In this document: in pieces, positions 16,888 through 30,327 of the stretch
Layout of the letters: every line of letters starts with the position of its first letter
Position numbering within the stretch: the first letter of the stretch is position 1
NCBI RefSeq assembly: GCF_019649055.1
Contig: NW_026570224.1
Coordinates: forward strand, 1,302,001 to 1,366,000
DNA from: Paramacrobiotus metropolitanus
Lineage: Eukaryota; Tardigrada; Eutardigrada; Parachela; Macrobiotidae
Length of the DNA: 64,000 bases
Direction: 5' to 3'
Notes under the pieces: model-generated
Database searches by the model: none
What the model was told of the DNA's origin: nothing
The model's input: only the letters and a program-made list of their open reading frames with translations
Position numbers and translations under genes: made by a program

Positions 16888-19800
16888 TTATATCGTAGTC
16901 AGCCTTTCTCTGGAACCTTCGACCCAGTATGTTAGGACGTTGCCTTTTCCTTTGACCTTTACAAAACCCCTTGGGTAGATGTCGAAGAGGTTCGGAAAAT
17001 ATTCTCTCAGAATATCTGCCGATGCGGTGCTTATCTGAATTCTGGAAGGTTCTCCTGTGCTCTGCATTCTCGAAGCCGTGTTAACAGTGTCACCAAATCT
17101 GCAAAAAATCGTGCTGTACTCTGTAGTGATACAGGTAATACTTGTGTTACGCAGCGGTTATACTATTTTTCAGAGTGTGGCAGTAGTGCAAAGAGAAGAT
17201 TTTTGGTTCATAGCCTTAAGCAAAGCTGCTTTGATTTTGTGAAATTTACACAGTTTTACATCGTATAATTATACTTATCAGTATTCACTTGTTTTTGGAA
17301 ATTATTACAGATGAAAATAACATACAAGCAATATCGAGGCTTTTGGTTGCCCACCACAGCAGCGACACACGGCCCTAAAGAGGAATCACTTTCTCACAAT
17401 CGTTAGTTGTGAAATCCAAAGCGCCAAAATCTGGATTCCAAAGAATTATTTTTACCAGAGTTGGCTCCACTTCGCAGTTGTAGTTCAGTTGATTTTGCTG
17501 CGGCAGTGTCTGTGAACTTATTGTGCAGCGACACAACAAACGAACAAATTTCTTTGGTGTGAAAGACATCATTGCGCTCGGGAACGCCACTTGAAACCTT
17601 TAATCAGGTCCACACTTTAAATGTAACTCGTAATTGGACAACGGCAAATTTTGGTGTTTGCAAACGAAAACGTGTAATAAACTCTAATGCTACCATGTAT
17701 GTCTCCAAAATCGTTTCCACTTTGTACACATCAAACCGATGCAGAGTCCTGTCGAATAAGGAATAGATAGTGTTCAACAGATCAGTAATAGCCGAAGGTG
17801 TCGCCTTCCCAGCAAAACCGTCGAATCCAAATATACTCGTAAAGAGTATCGTGGTAGAATCAAATGTTTCGGGAAGCACGCTGTAGCCGGTACGTAGTTG
17901 CTCCACAACATACCTTAAACAAGTTGCAGTAAAATATTCTTCATGTTAAGTTAAACACTGTATTATGTATCACGTCGTGCAAGCATAAAATTGTGCGTAC
18001 TTTGGCAACATTTCTTGAAGGAGATTATCACATTTCCTCCTTTCGGCAACTATTGCCTGTGTGCGTGCTGCAACTTCGTTTTCCAGTGTTTCCGCATACG
18101 CTTGCAGGCGATCCCAGATTTCATCAAGAAGATTTCTCTGACGACCTTTCATATCGAGAGCGCGCAAGGTGTCATGGCGAATCGAGTTGATATCCCGGCG
18201 GTTTTTTGGATCTTCCGACCAGCACTGCTCGATTACCGGATTCAGCCGACCGGCTAGATTGCCGTCATGGGACAGCATGGGTCGCATCAAGTATTGCTGT
18301 TGACCGCCATTTTCAATCGCAAAAATAATTTCTGTTATAAAACGCCATTAATTACTAGCCAAAAACGTTTCCGTTCTTCAAATCAACGAAATAAAAAAGC
18401 CGAAACCAACAAGCAAAATTTTATAAAGCGTTCGCTCCATTCAAACCAAAATTTTTGCAGGCCGACTTAATTAACCTTATAACTTAACTTAGTTTACAAT
18501 TAAATTAGGTTATTATTATATAGCGAAATAAGTAAAATAAAAAAGTCGCTAGGCTTTGCCCGTCCGTTCGGTGAATCGACAAAACGGTTTGCACTTTGCA
18601 CCTACCGGAAGACGTCAATCGATTGTATTCCACATATGGTAACGAATTCCATAAAATCTCATTGAGGATTATACCAAGTGAGTAGATATCCGTCAAGCTT
18701 GACAACGGTGCTGCACCCCTGAGTACTTCCGGTGCTGTCCAAAATTTTCTCCAGATGTCAGATTCTTGAACTGCCGGACTTAGCTTGCCGTAATGCTGGT
18801 GCGTTAGCAGGTGATAATAGCCAAACTTAGCTATTTTTAATGAGAAATGTCTGTCAATTAAGCAGTTCCATCCTGTAAGAGTGCCGTGAAACGCCAGAGG
18901 AGATGAGTGGATCCAGTGCAAACCCTGTCGTCACCATTTCGTATGAAATGACATTATTCTATACACAATTACAAGAAAATTATAAAATGTCCTCAGCGGG
19001 CTAAACATAATTGAAGATATCCACCTCTATTAAGTCCAGAATGAACGAGATGCGTAGCTGATCTTCGAAAAACGGCTGCTCAAAAAGGTCGTGTAGAGAT
19101 CCTTTGGAGCAAAAGTTGCTCACGAAATATAATGATTGATGTTCCCGATAGCCGCACATGCCAATAAATTTATTTATATGCTCCTGTGGCGCTTCTTTCA
19201 TCTGACAAAAACACATGATTTAGAGGATACCTGTGTGCGTATGAAATCCTTAGCTTCCTGTCACTTTCTCAGCTCGCGATCGTAGGTACAGTGCAACTAA
19301 AGTAATGAAGTGGATGTACTGCCTCTTTAACGTACCACTCGTAATATTTTTATGATTTCCTTAGGATATTTGATTAAGTGCTGCTTATCGCGCTGTCTTA
19401 AAGTTTCTCCATCGTCAAAAACTTTAGCCGCTTCCATCGGGACAGGAATTCGATCCGCCCAGACATCCATTTCTTGGTATCTTGCATGACCTTTTGCCGG
19501 AGTATTATTCACCATAATATCCTGTAAAGGCGACCTGCCGGTAGGCGCATACATACAGAGACTGATGCAGTTGATTTTTCGCGTTACTGTATTGTCCAGA
19601 ACTTTTCGTGTCGAATTGGGTGTAATCAGAATAGTGGAGATCGCTGACTGTTGGGGTTGTCGAAAATACAGCTGCGGACGATCAAGCAACCACCACGTGC
19701 TCCGAAGCTCGGCTGCTCGGCGTACTTGTCTGTGCGCAACATAACAATTAATTTTTCATGATTTTTTTACGTTAGCGATCAAGAAAATAAAATCCTTAAA

Positions 19801-22800
19801 CCTTCAAGCAAAATATGATTGAAGAACTAAAAATTTTATTACATTGCGTTAAATACATTTGCACAGGCGAACGATGTGTACGTAGTACCTAATTATACAT
19901 GCTGATGCAATTAAGATGAGAAGTAGCCCTGAAACCGGTACTCCCAGAATCAATCCATAAAACTGGCTCAGGGAAAGTGTATCTGGAATAATATAAAGAA
20001 ACGGTTAAACAGTGCGTTCGAAAGGTGAGTGCTAGCATGAGCAAAAAGGTTACGTAATTGCCTGTTCTGGTGGCACACGATCCATGATCGCCTCGATAGC
20101 CGCAGACCGGCTCATTGGGAGGAACGTCAACGCTGCTACGCTTTCCACCCCAATCCATGGGCTTTACTGAACGTAATGTGCGAGAACTTTCGTCTTGATA
20201 CATTGCGACCTGCCCAAATATCATTAGTTTCGCATTTAATAGCTCTAGCTAAGTGTTTGTGTTTGCAAAATGCAACACAATACAATAAACAAATCCGGCT
20301 TTCGTAAAATCAAAGTAAATACTGGTACTGCAGGACTGCACAGTACTATTCTTGCTGCCTACCTGCCATAATCCTGTTTCTGGATTAAGGTCATTCACCA
20401 TGCATTTCGTGCTGCGTTCGCCGGCTATGTCAATATAGACATCGGTGAAATTGAAATGAAATTTCGAATCTTGAAACTGTGCTGCAAGCATTGTGCCATC
20501 CTTCCAGTCGAAGTCCGGCTCGGATTCGTAAAGGTCACTGACAACCTATGCGAAACATTGTTATTGGTGCCTTGGTAAGTAATACATACGGTTTCCACAC
20601 GACCACTGTTTCTCGTATGATTTATAGTTTACAAAGTACATCGTGTTTTGTGTGATGCGTCAAGGACGTGAACCGTACCTGACCAAATATTACAACCGCC
20701 AAATAGGTAGATGTTACTGCCGGTTGTAGCTGCAAAAAAATTTCTTGTTATTTCACAGAAACACAGTAAATGGCGTTGTGCATATATTTTTCCAACGATT
20801 AGCAGGAACTTTCTGTACTTTGTTCTCTAAATCTACTTCTACTCTACCTAGGAGCTGGACTAACCGTATACTGTATAATTATAAATACGAGTATGTATAG
20901 CTTCTCAGATGTTTAATTCGAAATATCTGTTGCAGATTTAAACAATCCATATGAAATTTATGAATAGCATTATGAAGAGCTAAAGTATTATGAAGAGCTA
21001 AAGCGTTATGAAGAAGGGCTTATGTACCTTCTTTCAGATTTCTACTCGGATCTGTTAATCTCTCCTAAATGTTTTTGTTAGCAGAAAATTGTTTTTGTTC
21101 GACCAGACTTGAAGTCTGCTCTTGTGCCGTAATAATTATAATAATTATAATAATAATAATAATAATAAAGTTTTGTTCTGGCATACAAACTCGTTATATG
21201 GTTTTACCCCTTCGTCCGGTTTGTACAAATAACCAAACTCTTTCCAAGATTGCTCTTTCCATTTCTCCACCAACGCTACGGACGGAACATTGTAAATAAC
21301 TGGATCATTTTCCACAAAAATTAATGATCGGTAAGCTTCTTTGGCAGCGGTATCGAATCGGTCTCCAAAGTGCCAGCTGAAATTGCCGAATTCATCAAGG
21401 TCATGGAAGGATGCTTGCGTAAGGTAAACCTACATTGAAAAGTGTATTCTAACTTTTTTATAATTAAAAATTCGATATTTTATTCGATATGGTTTATTGA
21501 ATGAATTTATCAGTACAGGGCAAAAAAATGAATTTGCTGCTTGCGCCGCTTATTGTTACTAGCTTATGCAAGCCTAAAAAAACTCGGAAGCGCCAGAAAG
21601 TAAATTAAACTTACATATTCTCCATTTGTCATATTAAGGGAATGTGCTCGCAACTGCAACATTTTAGATGTCTAAATTAAAGTGCATGATGAATGTATTT
21701 TTATATCCTTTTATCATCTTAACCCAGCTAGCTGGATAGAACTATTCACACGTACAGGTACTTGGATAGATTATTTGTAAATAAAATATGTTTTATACTG
21801 ACCATAAATTTCCTCAAGACGTTAGAGTGAGAGAAGAAGAAAAGCACTGTAAATAATAAATTATTGCTTCGTTATATGCTACTACTGTATATATGTTTTA
21901 ATCGCAAGGTTGGACACTGATGTAAAGTAATATCGGAACTGCAGAATAAAAAACCATAGTACTCTGTACTTGCCTCTGCTGGTTGTGTTGAATTCCTTTA
22001 AAATTTCTGTGTCATTTTCCACCTTTGTAGAGCGTATTCGTCTAATTGTTAACTGACACCCAGGTACTAGATCCGGCAGATATTTTGCCAGTCCTTCCAT
22101 TCCAACTTGGTAAGACCGACTGGCATCAAGATCCAGAACGACAAATAGATTCATCCAGTGAAAGTACTTGAAGACGTTTGAAGCAAGTAATAAGTAATTT
22201 GTCGGAGACGTTGAGACTGCAGCCACCCATGTGGGAGCAATTGTTTTATTGCGCTGATCTACAAAGCTTGAGGAGCTGAAACCACAAAATTAATATTTCC
22301 TTATTCAATTTGATATGAAAGTTACTAAAGTTGTGAAGCTTTAATATAGATTAAGGAAAAATTACAAGAAATGATTGAGGACGCAAACGATTTTCGTTTT
22401 GTAAAGCGCACAGCTGACAGCGGCATAGTATATTATTAACATAGGACAATAAAATCAGTTATGTTGCACAAGTATATTTCATAAGTTAAATTTGTAGAAG
22501 AAGTACGTGGAAAGACTGTACTGCATCTAAAGGCAGGCAGTCTACTTTAAACAATACTCGTATACTACAGGGGATAAAACTATTCTCTAGTTTTTGACCT
22601 TTATAGTGGACCGAAAATTCGATTGCAGAAGTATCCCAAGATAGAATTAAATTACTGTCGTCCGTACATCGTATGACATGTCACGTTAGATTAATACATA
22701 CGCGATACCCTAATGATTCTGCTATTACGAGAATTTCTGCAGAAATATAACGTTGAAGGGTTGCTACCATTAGCGCAGTGGCATTCACCTAGTTATCAAA

Positions 22801-23718
22801 AGGATGTTCCAGGAAGCTGCTAACCGATTAACTTCCATACTTTCATCACATCCTGCAAATGATATGCGTGCAAAAGTTGTAAAGGACCATTTTTGTGTGT
22901 ACATAATTTTAAAAAATTTAGCTACAGCGCAGATATACCGGTAGATCTGTATTTACGATTAGATCTGTGTTTGTATTGTAGCAGTTGTTTACTGTACTCG
23001 CTCATAAGCAAATTGAAAAGAATTCGAACTAATCCTATCAATCCAAACATCAAACAGGAATGCAAACCACAAATAAAACATTAATTTGGAAGTATTTGAG
23101 AGCTGAAGACTATAAAGAGCTTAATACACTGTTATTCAATATTTCAGCATTCAATAATTATTAATGACTCAAATACCTTGATTAATTGCTTTATCATTTC
23201 ATAACTACATTATTCAGTTAAGCAGTGTTATGGCATACAGATATAAAAAGTATAAACACGTAATAAACTCAAATCCGTGTTAGTTTGACTTATACGATTT
23301 CATCTTTGGAAATTTCATTGTTATTGTCTACTTTAAGAAGCTCTCCTTTTCGATAGTTACCTGGTTCGATAAAGGCCGTCAAGTCCGGTATGCTTGATCT
23401 TGTGTAGTACCATTTCGATAAAGCATAGGATGTATTGGATTCGATCATTCGACAGACAGATGAGTTATCAGAATTTTCCAAGTACAAGTATGTATGCAAA
23501 AAGTTAATTTTTTCGCCATATTTTCGTTGAATCTCTTCCACAGCAGAGTCCATAGCCGGCGCCGAATACGCCAATGAGGAGTAACTTACAGGTTCACGAA
23601 ATCCCAGAGTCAGAATTTCCACTGTGAAGGTACAGCTGGCAACATGCAAACAGTGCAAAAAAATGAAACGATTCAGCAATAATGGCCCTGAGCTCGATGA
23701 AGGTATAACGGTTAACAT
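16888..23718 (-). CDS. Receptor-type guanylyl cyclase, copy with altered metal site
   Basis: Single-pass receptor of the natriuretic-peptide-receptor type. Nineteen exons: 23718-23361, 22852-22789, 22275-21974, 21846-21803, 21653-21615, 21429-21208, 20729-20679, 20545-20363, 20209-20062, 19982-19889, 19729-19588, 19521-19336, 19201-19025, 18924-18606, 18331-18001, 17913-17694, 17597-17456, 17374-17326, 17098-16888; 1093 residues. Order: hydrophobic leader; extracellular ligand-binding domain to about 465; membrane segment (FYGLILGVPVSGLLLILIAS) in exon 10; kinase homology domain (GSLHDLF, GTLTGWNCLIDRHFSLKI, FWTAPEVL); linker helix ending LLQEMLPK; cyclase domain from about 887. In the cyclase, the first metal Asp is Ser913 (FTSIFGF for FSDIVGF) and the second is Glu957 (ILETYM for IGDAYM). 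The purine pocket (KVET, PRYC) and catalytic Asn/Arg (GDTVNTASR) remain. It probably cannot make cGMP alone. Introns 3 and 9 use GC donors. Tandem paralogue of the gene at 24344. Confidence 0.93.
19522..19587 (-). other. 66-nt stopless intron in the receptor cyclase
   Basis: GTAACG...TTTACAG lies between WWLLD-containing exon 11 and the ARYQEMDVWAD exon. The paralogue has a 67-nt intron at exactly this place (26981-27047), which supports calling it an intron. It is a multiple of three and has no stop, so if retained it adds 22 residues without breaking the frame. Confidence 0.75.
20970..21016. repeat. Tandem 18-bp repeat in a cyclase intron
   Basis: The unit ATTATGAAGAGCTAAAG recurs two and a half times within intron 6 of the left receptor cyclase. 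On the plus strand it happens to be open, but it lies inside a minus-strand intron and has no splice or start context. Confidence 0.8.
21130..21170. repeat. AAT microsatellite in a cyclase intron
   Basis: An imperfect ATA/AAT trinucleotide run lies within intron 6 of the left receptor cyclase, just beyond the end of exon 6. Confidence 0.85.
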
Positions 23719-24343
23719 GACGTCTGGTTAAAAAATGGTGATGCGTTGACCGACCGGTAAGAATCGAGCACTGATTCCCGGTTAGATGCGTATGGGCTTT
23801 CATCACCGGAATGCAATTTCATCGGATTATCATGCAGGAAGGACACGTCAAGAAGAGGAACCGGAAATTCATTGTATTCAGTGCATCACGAAGTATTAAT
23901 AATGCGGCTTCAGATTGGGATTTCCCGTCATTCACCTTTTGCAGAGTTACGTTTCAATAACTGATATATGCAGAATTTTTCTGTGCTACATCCAGTTTGC
24001 ACTACATGTTTTTGCTGTGCAGTCTGGCGGTTATTAATTTTCCGTTTGGATTTCGTAGAAAAGTCTCATTTAGACGGAGATGAAATTTATTGATTTTGCT
24101 ATTGAATGAAATTTTATGTTTGGATATTTATACCGATATGGTGATACCCATCGTAGTAGTTCTTCTGGCGGTTTTGTAATGCACGCTTCAACAATAAAAT
24201 GAAATACTACAGCTCTGAATACTACGCAAGTTATTGGAGAAGTTATTGAAGACACGGCATAATGTCTCGCTTCTTTGCGACGCGGCAATATTAACCGGCA
24301 GACAGATACAGCCGCAACAATATTCTTGCTGCATGCATGCGTA
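23719..24343. other. Spacer between the two receptor cyclases
   Basis: The 625 bases contain no supportable gene. The left part should carry the promoter of the left cyclase and the right part the 3' untranslated region of the right cyclase, both transcribed leftwards. I see no shared element that would suggest a polycistronic unit. Confidence 0.5.
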
Positions 24344-27300
24344 TCAGTTATTTAGCCAATATGTATTGACGTCGCCTTTGCCTTTAACAAAAACGGTACC
24401 GCGTAGTACAATGTCAAAATATGGATGGTAATCCAGTAAAATCTTCCGGGTTGTTTCGGTTATCTGCACTCGATTGGGTAATCCTGTACTTTCCATTCTT
24501 GAGGCGAAATTGACAGTATCTCCAAATCTGTTAGCAACAATTGCCCAAAGATTACAAGCTCATATAGTATAGCAAAGCGGATAGCATAACACGTGATAAC
24601 GGACTTACAAACAATACCGCGGTTTTTGAAGACCAACGACGCCTCCAACACAAGATCCTGGTAACACACAAATGCATACTTTTACACATTTTTCATTGGT
24701 TGCTTTTACGCCGACCGGAAGTTAAAGGTCACGGTACCAAAATTCTCATTGATATTTTTTGGTTTACTGAATAACAGGCGAGCTTGTTGTATTCGTTGTT
24801 TACAAGTCGCATACAGTAAAACAGCAAATTTTCAACGACTGGGTTAATTACCGGAGTTAATTCCACTCCGTAAAGAAAGAAAATGGGCGAAATCACTAGC
24901 GGCAAAATGCTGCTGCAGTGCAAGGGCTAAAGAGCAGATTTCTTTTGCGTGGGCAATACCGTTACGTACAGGCACACCACTAGCTACCTGTCAAAATAAA
25001 AGCATTAACTTATATTTTCCGCAGTGATACTGTTTTCAATGATGGGAAAGTTGAAAATATGAAGAATATTGGTATATTGGTAGCACAGTATATAAATCGT
25101 ACCATATACACTTCCCCAATCGTCTCCACTTTGTACACGTCAAATACAACAAGGACTTTGTCGAATACCGAATAAACCGCATTGAGCAATTCCGTCACAT
25201 CCGTTGGTGAAGACCCTGCCGCGTACTGGCTGAAGCCGAACATATCGCTAAACATTATGGTCACCGAATCAAAGTTTTCCGAGTTAACGGTATGTCCGGC
25301 TCGAAGTTGCTCCACAACAGACCTAAGACAATAACAGCAAATATTAAAAAAGTTAAAGAAAACGATTTTTCATATGATTTCTTACGACGGCAGCATTTCC
25401 CGCAAAAGGTCATCACATTTTTTCCGTTCGGACATCAGCGCATGGGTGCGACTTGTCACATCCCGTTCCAGAGTCTGAGCGTACCTGTCACCAGCAGCGA
25501 ACAACATAACTTGTACGTTCAAGTTTAACAGAGTCTGGGCGTACATTTCCAGTCGCTTCAGAATTTCCTCCATGAGATGCCCGCGCCGTCGATCTTTGAT
25601 ATTCAAAGCAAAATAAACTTCGTTGCGGACGGCTTGGATAGTTTTTCGTCTTTGTGGTATTTCGTCCCAGCAGTTTTTTATCACAAAATTCAACCGTTTT
25701 CCTAAGTAGCTGCTCTCGGAAAGACTTGGCCTTGGCGTCGTTTGAAGGTTCTGGCCTTTTCGTATTTGCTCCAACAAATCTGTAACAACCAAACAAAGGT
25801 CACGGCTGAAAATGGCATGCTACAGCGCTGCTTGCCGCTAAATTATTAAGCACATCATTCACAATACAACGCTGGTTTTAATCAATTTAAAATTTGCATT
25901 ATGTAGTGACATGCCAATTGCTGCCAAGTATTCTTTCAGGTCGTTGTATGGCAGACTGCTGCAGATTATCTGGTTAAGGATGACTCCCGTAGCGAAAATG
26001 TCTGTAGCACTGTTGGGAGCCGTTATGGCCATTTTAAGGAGTTCCGGTGCCGTCCAAAAGAGCTTATCGGTTGGTAATTTCTCAATGGAGTACGGCATTG
26101 TTTTATAATACGGCTGGTCGAGCAAGTGATAATAACCAAATCGCCCAATTTTCAGCGCAAAATGTCGATCAATAAGACACACCCATCCCGTGAGAAAACC
26201 GTGAAAGCGCACAAACGATGAGTGTATCCAAACTAGACCCTACAACCAATTGGGAAGAAAGTCAGGCTTATCGGCATTTTGCTTTCCGGTCAAAGCACGA
26301 TTTGCTCCTTCGATACTCAACACGTGATTAAAACTATATTACGTATTTATAGACTATTAGTTATCAATAATGTGAGAATAAACATAATGTTCACGTTCAC
26401 CTGCAGCAGCATTAAGTACGGTAGTTGATAATCTTTGGTTAATACTTGGATTATTGGATACTCCAAGCGTGTCGTTTAGCACGTTTCAGAATTCTACGAG
26501 TACTTAACAGTCGTACCTCTAGCAAATCGAGAATAAGGGACACTCGAAATTGATCTTCAAAATACGGTTGATGAAATAAATCATGCAGGGATCCCTTATG
26601 ACAATAATTACTAATGAAAAATAGCATTCGATGGTCTGGATATCCACACATCCCAAGAAACTTGTTAATGTTGTCGGAAGGAGCGTCGCGCAGCTATACA
26701 AGTATATATATTTTAATAAACAGCAGAGAAAAATAGCCGCGCTCACCAATCATGTGCACTGCCTACGTATTGCATATTATATAGCCGTGTACAAATTATC
26801 GAATACCGTTCGCAAAATATCCAAGACGGATGCAGAAAAATTTATACGGCCAAAACCTCTCCGTATTTTCTCCCCGTCGCTGAACATCTTGTCGGCATCA
26901 TCCGGCAAAGGTATTTCGTCGGCCCATACTTCCATGTCCCTGTATCGCGCCATACCTTTTGTTGGCTTCATATTTTGTCCCTAGGATTGCAGATTAAATC
27001 CACTAAGTTAAATTTCTTATTGCGCATGAAAATGCTTTGCGGCATACTAAGTATTGGAGATTCGTGTTTTCCGCTGCCGAAATACGACTCCCAGCAGTGT
27101 GAAACTGCAGGTACGTGCGGTCAATCAGCCACCACGCATCCCGGAACTGTTGGATATACCGGTAGCGCCTGTTAATCGAAAGAAATAAGGCATGTTTAGT
27201 ATTTCTACCTGATAGCCGGTTTAACTAAATTGTCAAAAGATTGCCGACATAAATCAGGCACAAATTCGCAAAATTAGCTATCACTAAACAAATTATATAA

Positions 27301-30300
27301 AAAGATCAATCTATCAATTTTACTTTTATCCTTTATAGTAAATTTCTTGTGCATTATTTTGTAATTAGTGATTGCAAAACCTAATCCCTTATACATTTAC
27401 GCAATTAAAAAAAGCAATTTTGCAGTGCTTTGTATGTGTGCTTTGCTTACGCTATTTTGGGACCTTAGGAAACTATAGTTTTTGTTTTTGATATGCGCAC
27501 AGAAAATAGACATGCTATTTATTATATAGTTTGTGACCGAGAATCGAGCGGTATGAAAGTGCCGGAAACAGTAATAACTGTTTATAAAATGCTTTATCAT
27601 TGCACTGACCTGATGGCAAATATGGAGCACAAGAAAATCACCAAGAGAACGCCCAAAAGCGCGCCGAAAATGGTTGCGTAAGTTCTTTTTTCGTCCGCTG
27701 TTTATACAGTACTGCATTAGTTTTATTATGTTGACCCCGACAACATGGTTCTCTGTTCGAGTCCGCGTTTTTCCAGTTACAGTGCTTACTAGATATCAGT
27801 GCACAGGGACCTCGATTGCCTCTGTAACCGCAGATTGGTTGATTCAAGGGACTGCTGTTGCTTTTTCCTCCCCAGTCAATCGGCAATACGGCATGCAAGC
27901 GGCGAAATTTTTCATCTTGAAACATGGCGACCTAAAAAAAAGGAAAAACGCGGTCCAAGTTTATATGACTCGTCACATCATCCAATTTGCAGTTTTGCAC
28001 CAGCTTTTTATAACAAATAGAATGCAGAAAATTTTTTTGACTGACGATAAGAATGTCATCTTTATTTTACGCACCTGGTATTTTCCAGTTGTATAATTAA
28101 GGTCATTAATCATTATTTTTGTGCTGCGCTCTCCGGCCAGATCAAAGTACACGTCAGTAAAATTAAAATGAAAACTGCTGTCGTAAAACTGTGATGCTAA
28201 TAATGCTCCATCGGATATATTGAAGTCCGGCTCAGCTTCTAGTGTATCGCTTATGACCTAGACAAATTCGCAGCAGCGCACTATTGTTAATGCAGTCATG
28301 ATTAAAAACCATTTCTCTTTCTCTATAAACTTCAAGGTACCTGTGCGAATATGAGGATGGATAAGTAAGTGGCGGTGACTACTGGATTCACCTGTAGACA
28401 TGTACAGATGCAGGTAGTAAGCTAATCCAATATACATACTTCTGTGCGCAAGTGCATGGAGAAATAATTCCATCGTTAAGTAATTCCAGCGCCAGGGACA
28501 ACAAGCAGGCCGCAAAACATTTTAATAAGTTATTAGAATCACCTCTTCATTGTTTTCGTATTTAAAGTGAAAATTTGCGAATGATTGCCGTTTCCATTCG
28601 TTGACCAGTTTTGAGGATGGTGTACTGTAGATGACTGGATCACCTTCGATAAACAGTAGTGATCGATAGGCTTCCCTGGCAGTTTCATCAAACTGGTCAC
28701 CATAATGCCAGCTAAAATTTCCGAACTCGATAATGTCGTGGAATATTTGCTGAGCGACATAAACCTAGGGTAAACAGAAACCACATTACGGTATATCCCA
28801 GAGAAAATAGCATCCACTTTATTCTTTTGTAGCAAAATCTTGGAATAAACAAAATTACAAATAAATACACTACATGGATAGGAGTACGTACGTATTCTCC
28901 ATTCGTCATGTTCATCGCGTGAGCTTGCAGCTGAGAAAAATTGACAAGGTTTAGTGAAGCACAGTTCTACCAAAGTGGATCACTAAGCTTACCATAAATT
29001 TTCGTAGATTATCCGAATGAGAAAAAAACAGCAACACTGAAAAAAGGTTTTTATTAGCCAATTTTTATCAAAATGCGGCAACAATAAGCATTGCGACATG
29101 TTATATGAGTACAAACCTCTGCTGGTGACATTGAATTCCAGCAGTATGGCGCGGTTATCGATGCCGGCGCTTGACCTGACCGAGATTACCGTTGACTGAA
29201 AACCGGGAATCTGGCTAGGCAAATACTTCAAAATTCCATCCACACCAGCATGGTATGATCGACTGGAATATTTTATAATCATTATTACGAGTATTATACG
29301 TAATATACGATGCTTTTGTGGCAATCATGGTGCACTTTACCATGGTGCACTTTACCATGATCCCCGCTGGTGGATGTCAGTTTAAGTTACTGATGCAGAT
29401 ACTGGATACTCCACCCTTTAACTTGGTTTACAATCATCAGATCAAAATATTATCTCACCTAGAATCCAAATCTAGGACCATAAAAATGTTTGTCCAATTG
29501 AAGTATTTAAATAAATTAACCGGAAGGAGAATGTAATTTGTTGCCGATGCCGAAACAGCGGCTATCCAGGTTGGAGCAAGAGTTTTGTTGCGTTGATCAA
29601 TTCCACTTGCAGAACTGTAATGAGCAGATATAGATATAAAAGTTAATTTCACTAGCTGCAATAAAGAATAATTAATTGTTATGCCATGCGATGTTATAAG
29701 CTCGGCATATTCAATAAGCTTATGTCAACACTACGTAGTAAATACAAAACCTCGTAATCATTAGAAGATTCCATGCGGCAACCAGTTGGTTTATTTGATA
29801 CATATCCGAACATGCTGAAAAGGTCAGCGGGTCATAATCAAGGAAATAAGTAAGTATCGACACAGTAGTAGAATTTTTGGAATAATATAATTGCTAAATA
29901 AATATGAGATATGATCTGTCAAAACATAAATTAGAGTGCTTAGAAGGTGATTCGTTGCATGCTTCTTACTTGGGGCGATGTACGCTGCCGCATCCCATCG
30001 TTCTTTTGAATTGTAGTACCACTCGGACAATGCATAAGCAGCTTGGGCTTCAATCTCGTAACAATCCATTGTTCCATTTGGTAAAAACAAGAACGTATGC
30101 AAAAATTCAAAGCGTTCCTTGTATTTAGCTCGTATCTCGACCATGGCAGAGTCAATGGCAGGAGCCGAAAATGCCAGCGAAGGATAGCCGATCGGCTCGC
30201 GATATCCCAGTGTGACGATCTCTATGGTGCGGACACCGGAAACATCGTCATCAGCGCGTTGCACGTGAATTCCTTGCCAAAGAACTGAGGTAATCCATAT

Positions 30301-30327
30301 AAAGACCTCTACGTAAGTCCGTCTCAT
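24344..30327 (-). CDS. Receptor-type guanylyl cyclase, second copy
   Basis: Makes cGMP from GTP in response to an extracellular ligand; tandem paralogue of the gene to its left. Twenty-one exons: 30327-29970, 29814-29751, 29614-29459, 29262-29117, 29036-28993, 28930-28892, 28764-28543, 28391-28341, 28257-28075, 27931-27790, 27697-27610, 27168-27048, 26980-26807, 26693-26517, 26239-25915, 25779-25545, 25484-25386, 25322-25103, 24987-24852, 24657-24609, 24527-24344; 1070 residues. Leader and ligand-binding domain fill exons 1-10, with conserved CSDMYQINQLVAAWNLL in exon 2. The membrane segment is in exon 11 (IFGALLGVLLVIFLCSIFAI), then kinase homology (GSLHDLF, GFLTGWVCLIDRHF, FWTAPELL) and cyclase. 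The first metal Asp is kept (FSDMFGF, Asp901) but the second is Glu945 (IGEVYM). Purine-binding KVET and PRYC and catalytic VNFASR are present. Intron 15 uses a GC donor. Two introns are absent from the paralogue. Confidence 0.93.
25485..25544 (-). other. 60-nt intron bounded by 16-bp direct repeats
   Basis: Within the linker helix of the right receptor cyclase, GTACGCCCAGACTCTG (25544-25529) begins the insert and GTACGCTCAGACTCTG (25484-25469) begins the next exon. The insert starts with GT and ends with ACAG, so splicing it out restores EMYAQTLERD, which aligns with the paralogue's QAYAETLENE. The paralogue has nothing here. It is a multiple of three and open, so an exonic insertion cannot be excluded. 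Confidence 0.7.
29263..29458 (-). other. Copy-specific intron with a 15-bp tandem repeat
   Basis: This intron splits the ligand-binding domain of the right cyclase. The two flanking exons (156 and 146 nt) add up exactly to the single 302-nt exon of the paralogue. It carries the unit CATGGTGCACTTTAC twice in tandem plus a trailing CATG at about 29326-29359. Confidence 0.85.

Follow-up and report, generated by a model that had tools for sequence, protein, structure and literature searches.

The left of two neighbouring guanylyl cyclase genes in the tardigrade Paramacrobiotus metropolitanus is read as encoding a receptor guanylyl cyclase subunit of beta-like (C2-like) type, within a very large family whose class III active-site halves appear to have been split between genes repeatedly; the probability given to this reading is about 0.68. 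This reading is based on the residue pattern, the one-sidedness of the losses across the family, their repeated origin, the architecture of both genes and the lack of decay signs in the left one. What was first noted for one unusual pair extends to a division of the active site across the family.

The window analysed is a stretch of 64,000 nucleotides (contig NW_026570224.1, positions 1,302,001 to 1,366,000), in which the two genes lie head to tail, both on the minus strand. By spliced model and Pfam, the left gene (16888..23718) encodes an ANF receptor domain, a kinase-homology domain, a coiled-coil linker and a cyclase domain. The right gene (24344..30327) has 20 exons and 1053 aa in its spliced model and matches the same three families. 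ANF_receptor, Pkinase and Guanylate_cyc each scored above the Pfam cut-off in both genes, the families found being four (ANF receptor, two kinase models and cyclase); a transmembrane segment was placed in the models by eye only. With three domains in one chain, both genes have the architecture of receptor guanylyl cyclases. The haem (H-NOX) domain that marks membership of soluble guanylyl cyclase (sGC) beta was not found by Pfam in the left gene, and the best PDB sequence match of its cyclase domain was GC-A.

The outer limits originally predicted, 16888 and 30327, coincide with the stop codon of the left and the start codon of the right spliced model. For the left gene, the start codon (23718-23716) and a predicted signal peptide were inferred from the reading of the frame. 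The two spliced models are identical at 549 of 1013 aligned codons. No stop codons were found within the aligned frames, which is a mild statement since the aligner is blind to frameshifts and could place an intron across a stop. The cyclase domain is encoded by four exons with GT-AG limits in each gene, at 16888..17913 on the left and 24344..25322 on the right. In the right spliced model, the intron following the exon that ends at 25915 is GC-AG, the GC donor being required for the frame. A 60-base intron (25485-25544, minus strand) in the coiled-coil linker of the right gene has no counterpart in the left gene. Its first 16 bases resemble the start of the next exon, GTACGC[C/T]CAGACTCTG, and it has the look of an intron gained through a tandem duplication on the spot, or else of an in-frame insert that was retained.

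Residues were assigned to half-sites following a solved guanylyl cyclase structure, in the published description of which each site takes Asp482, Asp527 and Arg571 from one monomer and Asn599, Arg603 and Lys640 from the other (PMC2576301). In the left gene, the position of the first metal-binding Asp (Asp1) carries Ser (AGT, 17835..17837, in FTSIFGF) and that of the second (Asp2) carries Glu (GAG, 17703..17705, in KVETILETYM), both determined by strand reading and from the spliced exons. Retained on the same strand are the guanine-recognition Glu in KVET (GAA, 17715..17717), the triphosphate Arg in LRSG (CGA, 17472..17474), the guanine-recognition Cys in PRYC (TGC, 17328..17330), Asn (17082-17080) and Arg (17070-17068) in VNTASR (17068..17082), and the phosphate Lys in KGKG (AAA, 16951..16953). 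The substitutions and the kept KVET, PRYC and VNTASR motifs are as the original prediction had them.

Scored for Asp1, Glu, Asp2, Cys, Asn and Arg, the left gene reads SEECNR, plus Lys: metal Asp residues lost, Glu, Cys, Asn, Arg and Lys retained. The guanine-specific pocket (Glu in KVET, Cys in PRYC) is present; both metal Asp residues, as in a catalytically complete homodimeric cyclase, are found in neither gene (Ser/Glu on the left, Asp/Glu on the right). Judged by these residues, the left gene is a half-site subunit of the sGC beta or adenylyl cyclase C2 type. The earlier claim that it is beta-like is supported, with adenylyl cyclase C2 as a still closer pattern; so is the claim that it cannot work alone, as its residues predict an inactive homodimer.

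Sequencing error was considered as the source of the left Ser and rejected: AGT differs from the Asp codons GAT and GAC at two or three positions, so a single base error is not the explanation. A hidden alternative exon was likewise rejected, as the flanking introns of 87 and 96 bases offer little space for one of 220 bases.

In the right gene, Asp1 is retained (GAT, 25244..25246, in FSDMFGF) and Asp2 is replaced by Glu (GAA, 25112..25114, in KVETIGEVYM); both residues, as first described, were confirmed on the minus strand and in the spliced exons. Asp2 being changed here too, the standard metal pair is present in neither gene. KVET, PRYC and the Asn..Arg motif are present as in the left gene, the six-residue string being DEECNR with Lys also retained. 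An alpha-like partner would keep both metal Asp residues and lack Asn/Arg, which DEECNR does not. The genes had been proposed to form an alpha/beta-like pair; since the right copy has Asn, Arg and Lys together with Glu at Asp2, they are not a reciprocal pair of this kind. An obligate heterodimer in which the right copy supplies Asp1 and Glu, and the left copy the nucleotide half, is possible but not favoured. The copies are tandem sister genes (tree support 99) of the same architecture, the right one carries Asp1, and Glu could bind metal. Against this, the right copy retains the whole nucleotide half and so is not alpha-like, and Glu at Asp2 otherwise occurs in copies without Asp1: this Glu is found in five loci, and Asp1 is lost in the four besides the right gene, the left gene included, and Asp1 combined with Glu at Asp2 is found in the right gene alone among 162 loci. 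Glu at Asp2 thus tracks metal-lost copies, and the right copy may itself be impaired.

Simple decay of the left gene, as a pseudogene in progress, is most improbable, in line with the earlier argument against it. A large family with recent duplicates would supply such genes, but the frame and domains of the left copy are intact and its protein evolves no faster than that of the right copy (Tajima counts: 66 left-unique and 75 right-unique changes). The dN/dS analysis originally proposed was carried out with a three-taxon codon model of the left gene, the right gene and locus L164, in which the left/right profile covered 937 columns (mere parts in L163, L165 and L166). On the left branch, omega = 1 was rejected over the whole gene (933 codons, 2dlnL 13.6, p 2.3e-4), barely so over the cyclase domain by itself (p 0.031) and not over the extracellular domain by itself (p 0.26); left and right omega did not differ (p 0.30). 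With synonymous change between the two genes saturated and many fits at the bound on branch length, omega for single branches is weak and rough. NG86 likewise showed saturated synonymous sites between the two genes; none of the close beta-like pairs came through the cut-off, and the values for some distant ones were odd (omega about 0.5 at dS about 1) and carry no interpretation here. A maximum-likelihood codon model was therefore used instead of NG86 on 20 chosen paralogue pairs (11 Asp1-lost), and omega = 1 was rejected in 20/20, several of them at the upper branch-length bound.

The genome search for the cyclase domain gave at least 200 exon-wise matches, and 167 with the left gene as query. 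From the listed matches, 162 loci starting near the Asp1 exon were fetched (160 plus L161 and L162), making 164 with the left and right genes; two adenylyl-cyclase-like loci (L025, L056) were left out, giving a family of at least 162 loci. Further unlisted matches exist, so all family totals are lower bounds. Cyclase domains were spliced with an own profile aligner. In 12 loci one or more of the six residues was missing from the model, and 150 were counted. Receptor architecture was examined in the left gene, the right gene and a few other loci. Near-identical pairs on different contigs (L139/L154, L136/L148) are possible haplotypes, and L085 was counted as complete although its splice at the Asn/Arg segment is doubtful.

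All six residues were complete in 80/150 loci. Asp1 alone was lost in 44, Asp1 and Asp2 in 6 (the left gene among them), Asp2 alone in 8 (the right gene among them), Asp1 and Cys in 2, Cys alone in 1, and Asn and/or Arg with both Asp residues kept in 9. A metal Asp is thus lost in 60/150 fully read loci, Asp2 being retained in 46 of the 60; among all 162 loci, the Asp1 position is not Asp in 53. Kinase-homology exons were found upstream in 6/6 beta-like copies tested. On a tree of 163 rows built without the eight catalytic columns, Asp1 changed state at least 14 times, a rough figure since 54/157 inner branches were open in the first tree.

Several groups within the family stand out. L004 and L005 (C1:1328457 and 1346827), 18 kb apart, are identical in their modelled parts, through either very recent duplication or an assembly effect. 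Together with L006, L007, L045, L068 and L069 they form a clade (support 97) that keeps Asp1 and has Ser at Asp2 (IGSSYM), resembling the C2 half of adenylyl cyclases. Ten related receptors (L091-L098, L140, L156), eight of them on C68, form a stable metal-lost clade with Ser at Asp1 and the site otherwise complete.

Loss in the 60 metal-lost copies is confined to one side of the site. Glu, Asn and Arg of the nucleotide half are present in 60/60 each, Cys in 58/60 and the phosphate Lys in 57 of the 58 read. On the tree of these 60 rows, Glu, Asn and Arg changed 0 times and Cys and Lys once each; the median column changed 19 times, Asp1 24 times and the metal-half Arg 17 times. Besides Glu, Asn and Arg, 7 other columns of 190 showed no change, and the terminal branches total 35 changes per average column. 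The metal-half Arg, which was not used to define the classes, is non-basic in 16/60 metal-lost copies vs 0/90 others (Fisher 1.1e-7, relatedness ignored). Decay should alter both residue sets, which is not the pattern seen. In two Asp1-lost copies (L127, L138) the pocket Cys is Ser, which counts against the preferred, beta-like reading.

A metal Asp and Asn/Arg were never lost jointly (0/60 vs 9/90, p 0.011; 0/60 vs 7/88, p 0.042, without L119 and L146). This exclusivity comes down to about three events and would be weak alone; independent-pairs sign tests on the tree had 5 and 1 usable pairs and no power.

The same residues bear on two further explanations of the left gene. A pseudo-cyclase, able to bind nucleotide or ligand but serving outside catalysis as a decoy, a scaffold or a dominant-negative partner, would agree with a metal site that is gone and receptor and kinase-homology parts that are intact. 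It is nevertheless unlikely, as a non-catalytic subunit has no evident need for the transition-state Arg, the ribose Asn and the phosphate Lys, and these are near-frozen, each changing at most once in the 60 metal-lost copies. An active homodimer whose metal chemistry is altered, through Glu at Asp2, a single metal or Mn, could draw on the acidic Glu at the left Asp2 position. The substitutes at Asp1 across the family are nine (Ser, Ala, Gly, His, Tyr, Ile, Thr, Lys and Glu) with no single replacement, and the metal-half Arg is variable too, which makes this explanation very improbable. The assignment of the left gene as a beta-like half-site subunit is well supported by the residue comparison, and that it is maintained by selection in this role is most likely.

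The mirror class, with both Asp residues kept and Asn and/or Arg lost, comprises L029, L030-L032, L067, L119, L130, L131 and L146. Asn alone is lost in L029 and L119, and L067 carries Thr..Lys for Asn..Arg. In the seven copies in which the Lys column was read, Lys is absent in L031, L067, L119 and L131; its presence in the other three (L029, L030, L032) counts against the preferred reading of split halves. Of six mirror copies searched for kinase-homology exons upstream, four had them (L029, L030, L067, L130), while antisense control stretches gave no match at E 0.05; L031, L032 and L131 cluster with L030 and L130 (support 98). Seven of the nine are thus probably receptors. L119 (C80, without Asn) gave no kinase-homology match upstream and L146 (C144, without Asn and Arg) one of 26 positions only; lacking a clear upstream kinase-homology domain, these two were not counted as alpha-like receptors and are perhaps soluble cyclase subunits. 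As a class, the mirror copies are closest to GC-A (median identity 56.7% vs 46.1% for complete copies).

Neighbourhood does not point to a partner for the left gene. Among the fetched loci, 29 groups of neighbours within 50 kb were found. More than one class occurred in 6/29 (C4, C6, C10, C16, C72 and C74, the left/right pair included), and 23/29 were of a single class among fully read loci, a further point against the dimer of left and right copies; in C21, a beta-like locus adjoins an incompletely read one. A rule that a beta-like copy adjoins its partner was therefore rejected, adjacency being no evidence of pairing. Elsewhere, 80 complete copies and 9 that lack Asn/Arg could serve as partners, and one of these, alpha-like or complete, would be at least as likely a partner as the right gene.

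In the preferred reading, the left subunit would bring Glu and Cys for the guanine pocket, Asn and Arg for the ribose and the transition state, and Lys for the phosphate, and the metal-binding Asp residues would come from a partner. The heterodimer would have one working and one dead site, as in sGC and transmembrane adenylyl cyclase. A dimer of the left copy with another receptor, cGMP synthesis by that dimer and the identity of the partner are inferred; candidates are any copy with a working metal half, namely alpha-like receptors (few in number), complete copies, or the right copy if Glu can stand in for Asp2. The same pattern in dozens of relatives suggests that many receptors of the family function only when paired with a different one.

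As a tentative extension, with well under an even chance of being correct, the family may work as a combinatorial receptor system, in which a small number of conserved alpha-like (metal-half) cyclases would be shared hubs for dozens of divergent beta-like receptors, the left one included, with one active site per pair and a logic analogous to that of a co-receptor. Metal loss would have recurred because a dead second site neither binds GTP nor inhibits the first, an idea based on the NeoR/RGC1 mutant cited below, which suggests inhibition by the second site. If true, obligate heterodimers of receptor cyclases would not be peculiar to nematodes: another animal lineage would use them as a major mode, arrived at many times within a single genome (about 14 state changes on one tree), and the question would arise why a homodimeric enzyme would surrender one of its two sites. 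The number of stimuli encoded by a large receptor set that works pairwise could far exceed its number of genes, and the mirror classes offer ready partners for reconstitution. Receptor cyclases are not the sole candidate chemoreceptors, as gustatory-receptor-like genes (36 matches to 7tm_7, many in one open frame) and 6 matches to the odorant receptor family 7tm_6 are also present.

The kind of arrangement proposed is already known. The original prediction knew of no such arrangement among membrane receptor cyclases; precedents are ODR-1/DAF-11 (PMC5225109, PMC8045692) and NeoR/RGC1 (PMC12264004), as far as their published descriptions go. Its scale, repeated origin and mirror classes in one genome were not found described in the literature searched, which for tardigrade guanylate/guanylyl cyclases comprised titles and abstract openings and few subscription papers. 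A study of tardigrade ESTs is reported to have found no homologues of nematode-specific cyclases among them (PMC1435932).

In C. elegans, several receptor cyclases are described as lacking Mg- or GTP-binding residues (PMC5225109, PMC8045692). ODR-1 and DAF-11 are reported to be obligate partners that each contribute residues to the heterodimer (PMC5225109), and signalling by their chimaeras as requiring both (PMC5225109, PMC8045692). By this published description, the likeness lies in animal receptor cyclases paired as obligate heterodimers. The difference lies in number: C. elegans has 27 genes, and the tardigrade at least 162 cyclase loci, with 60/150 metal-lost and a mirror class in addition.

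The chytrid NeoR/RGC1 is described as a membrane heterodimer with one active site, in which NeoR has Thr..Lys for Asn..Arg, as in L067, and removal of the RGC1 metal Asp raised activity ninefold (PMC12264004). It differs in its rhodopsin sensor, in belonging to a fungus and in keeping the metal Asp residues in both subunits. According to the same source, NeoR did not regain activity when Asn and Arg were put back, and RGC2 by itself was inactive (PMC12264004); RGC1 and RGC2 are stated to retain all known residues yet to need NeoR, as obligate heterodimers (PMC8815786). From this behaviour, residues alone do not settle who dimerises.

The earlier comparison with sGC holds for alpha-1, which keeps both Asp residues and has Thr..Lys for Asn..Arg like L067, and in part for beta-1, which has lost Asp1 (Gly) and kept KVET like the left gene. 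Beta-1 retains Asp2, however, whereas the left gene has lost both Asp residues, which counts against the preferred reading; sGC is, moreover, soluble and haem-regulated. The closest match to the left pattern is the C2 half of AC5, with Ser at Asp1 (FASIANF), Ser at Asp2 (IGSTYM) and Asn, Arg and Lys kept, in an enzyme that differs in carrying the C1 and C2 halves in one chain and in being adenine-specific.
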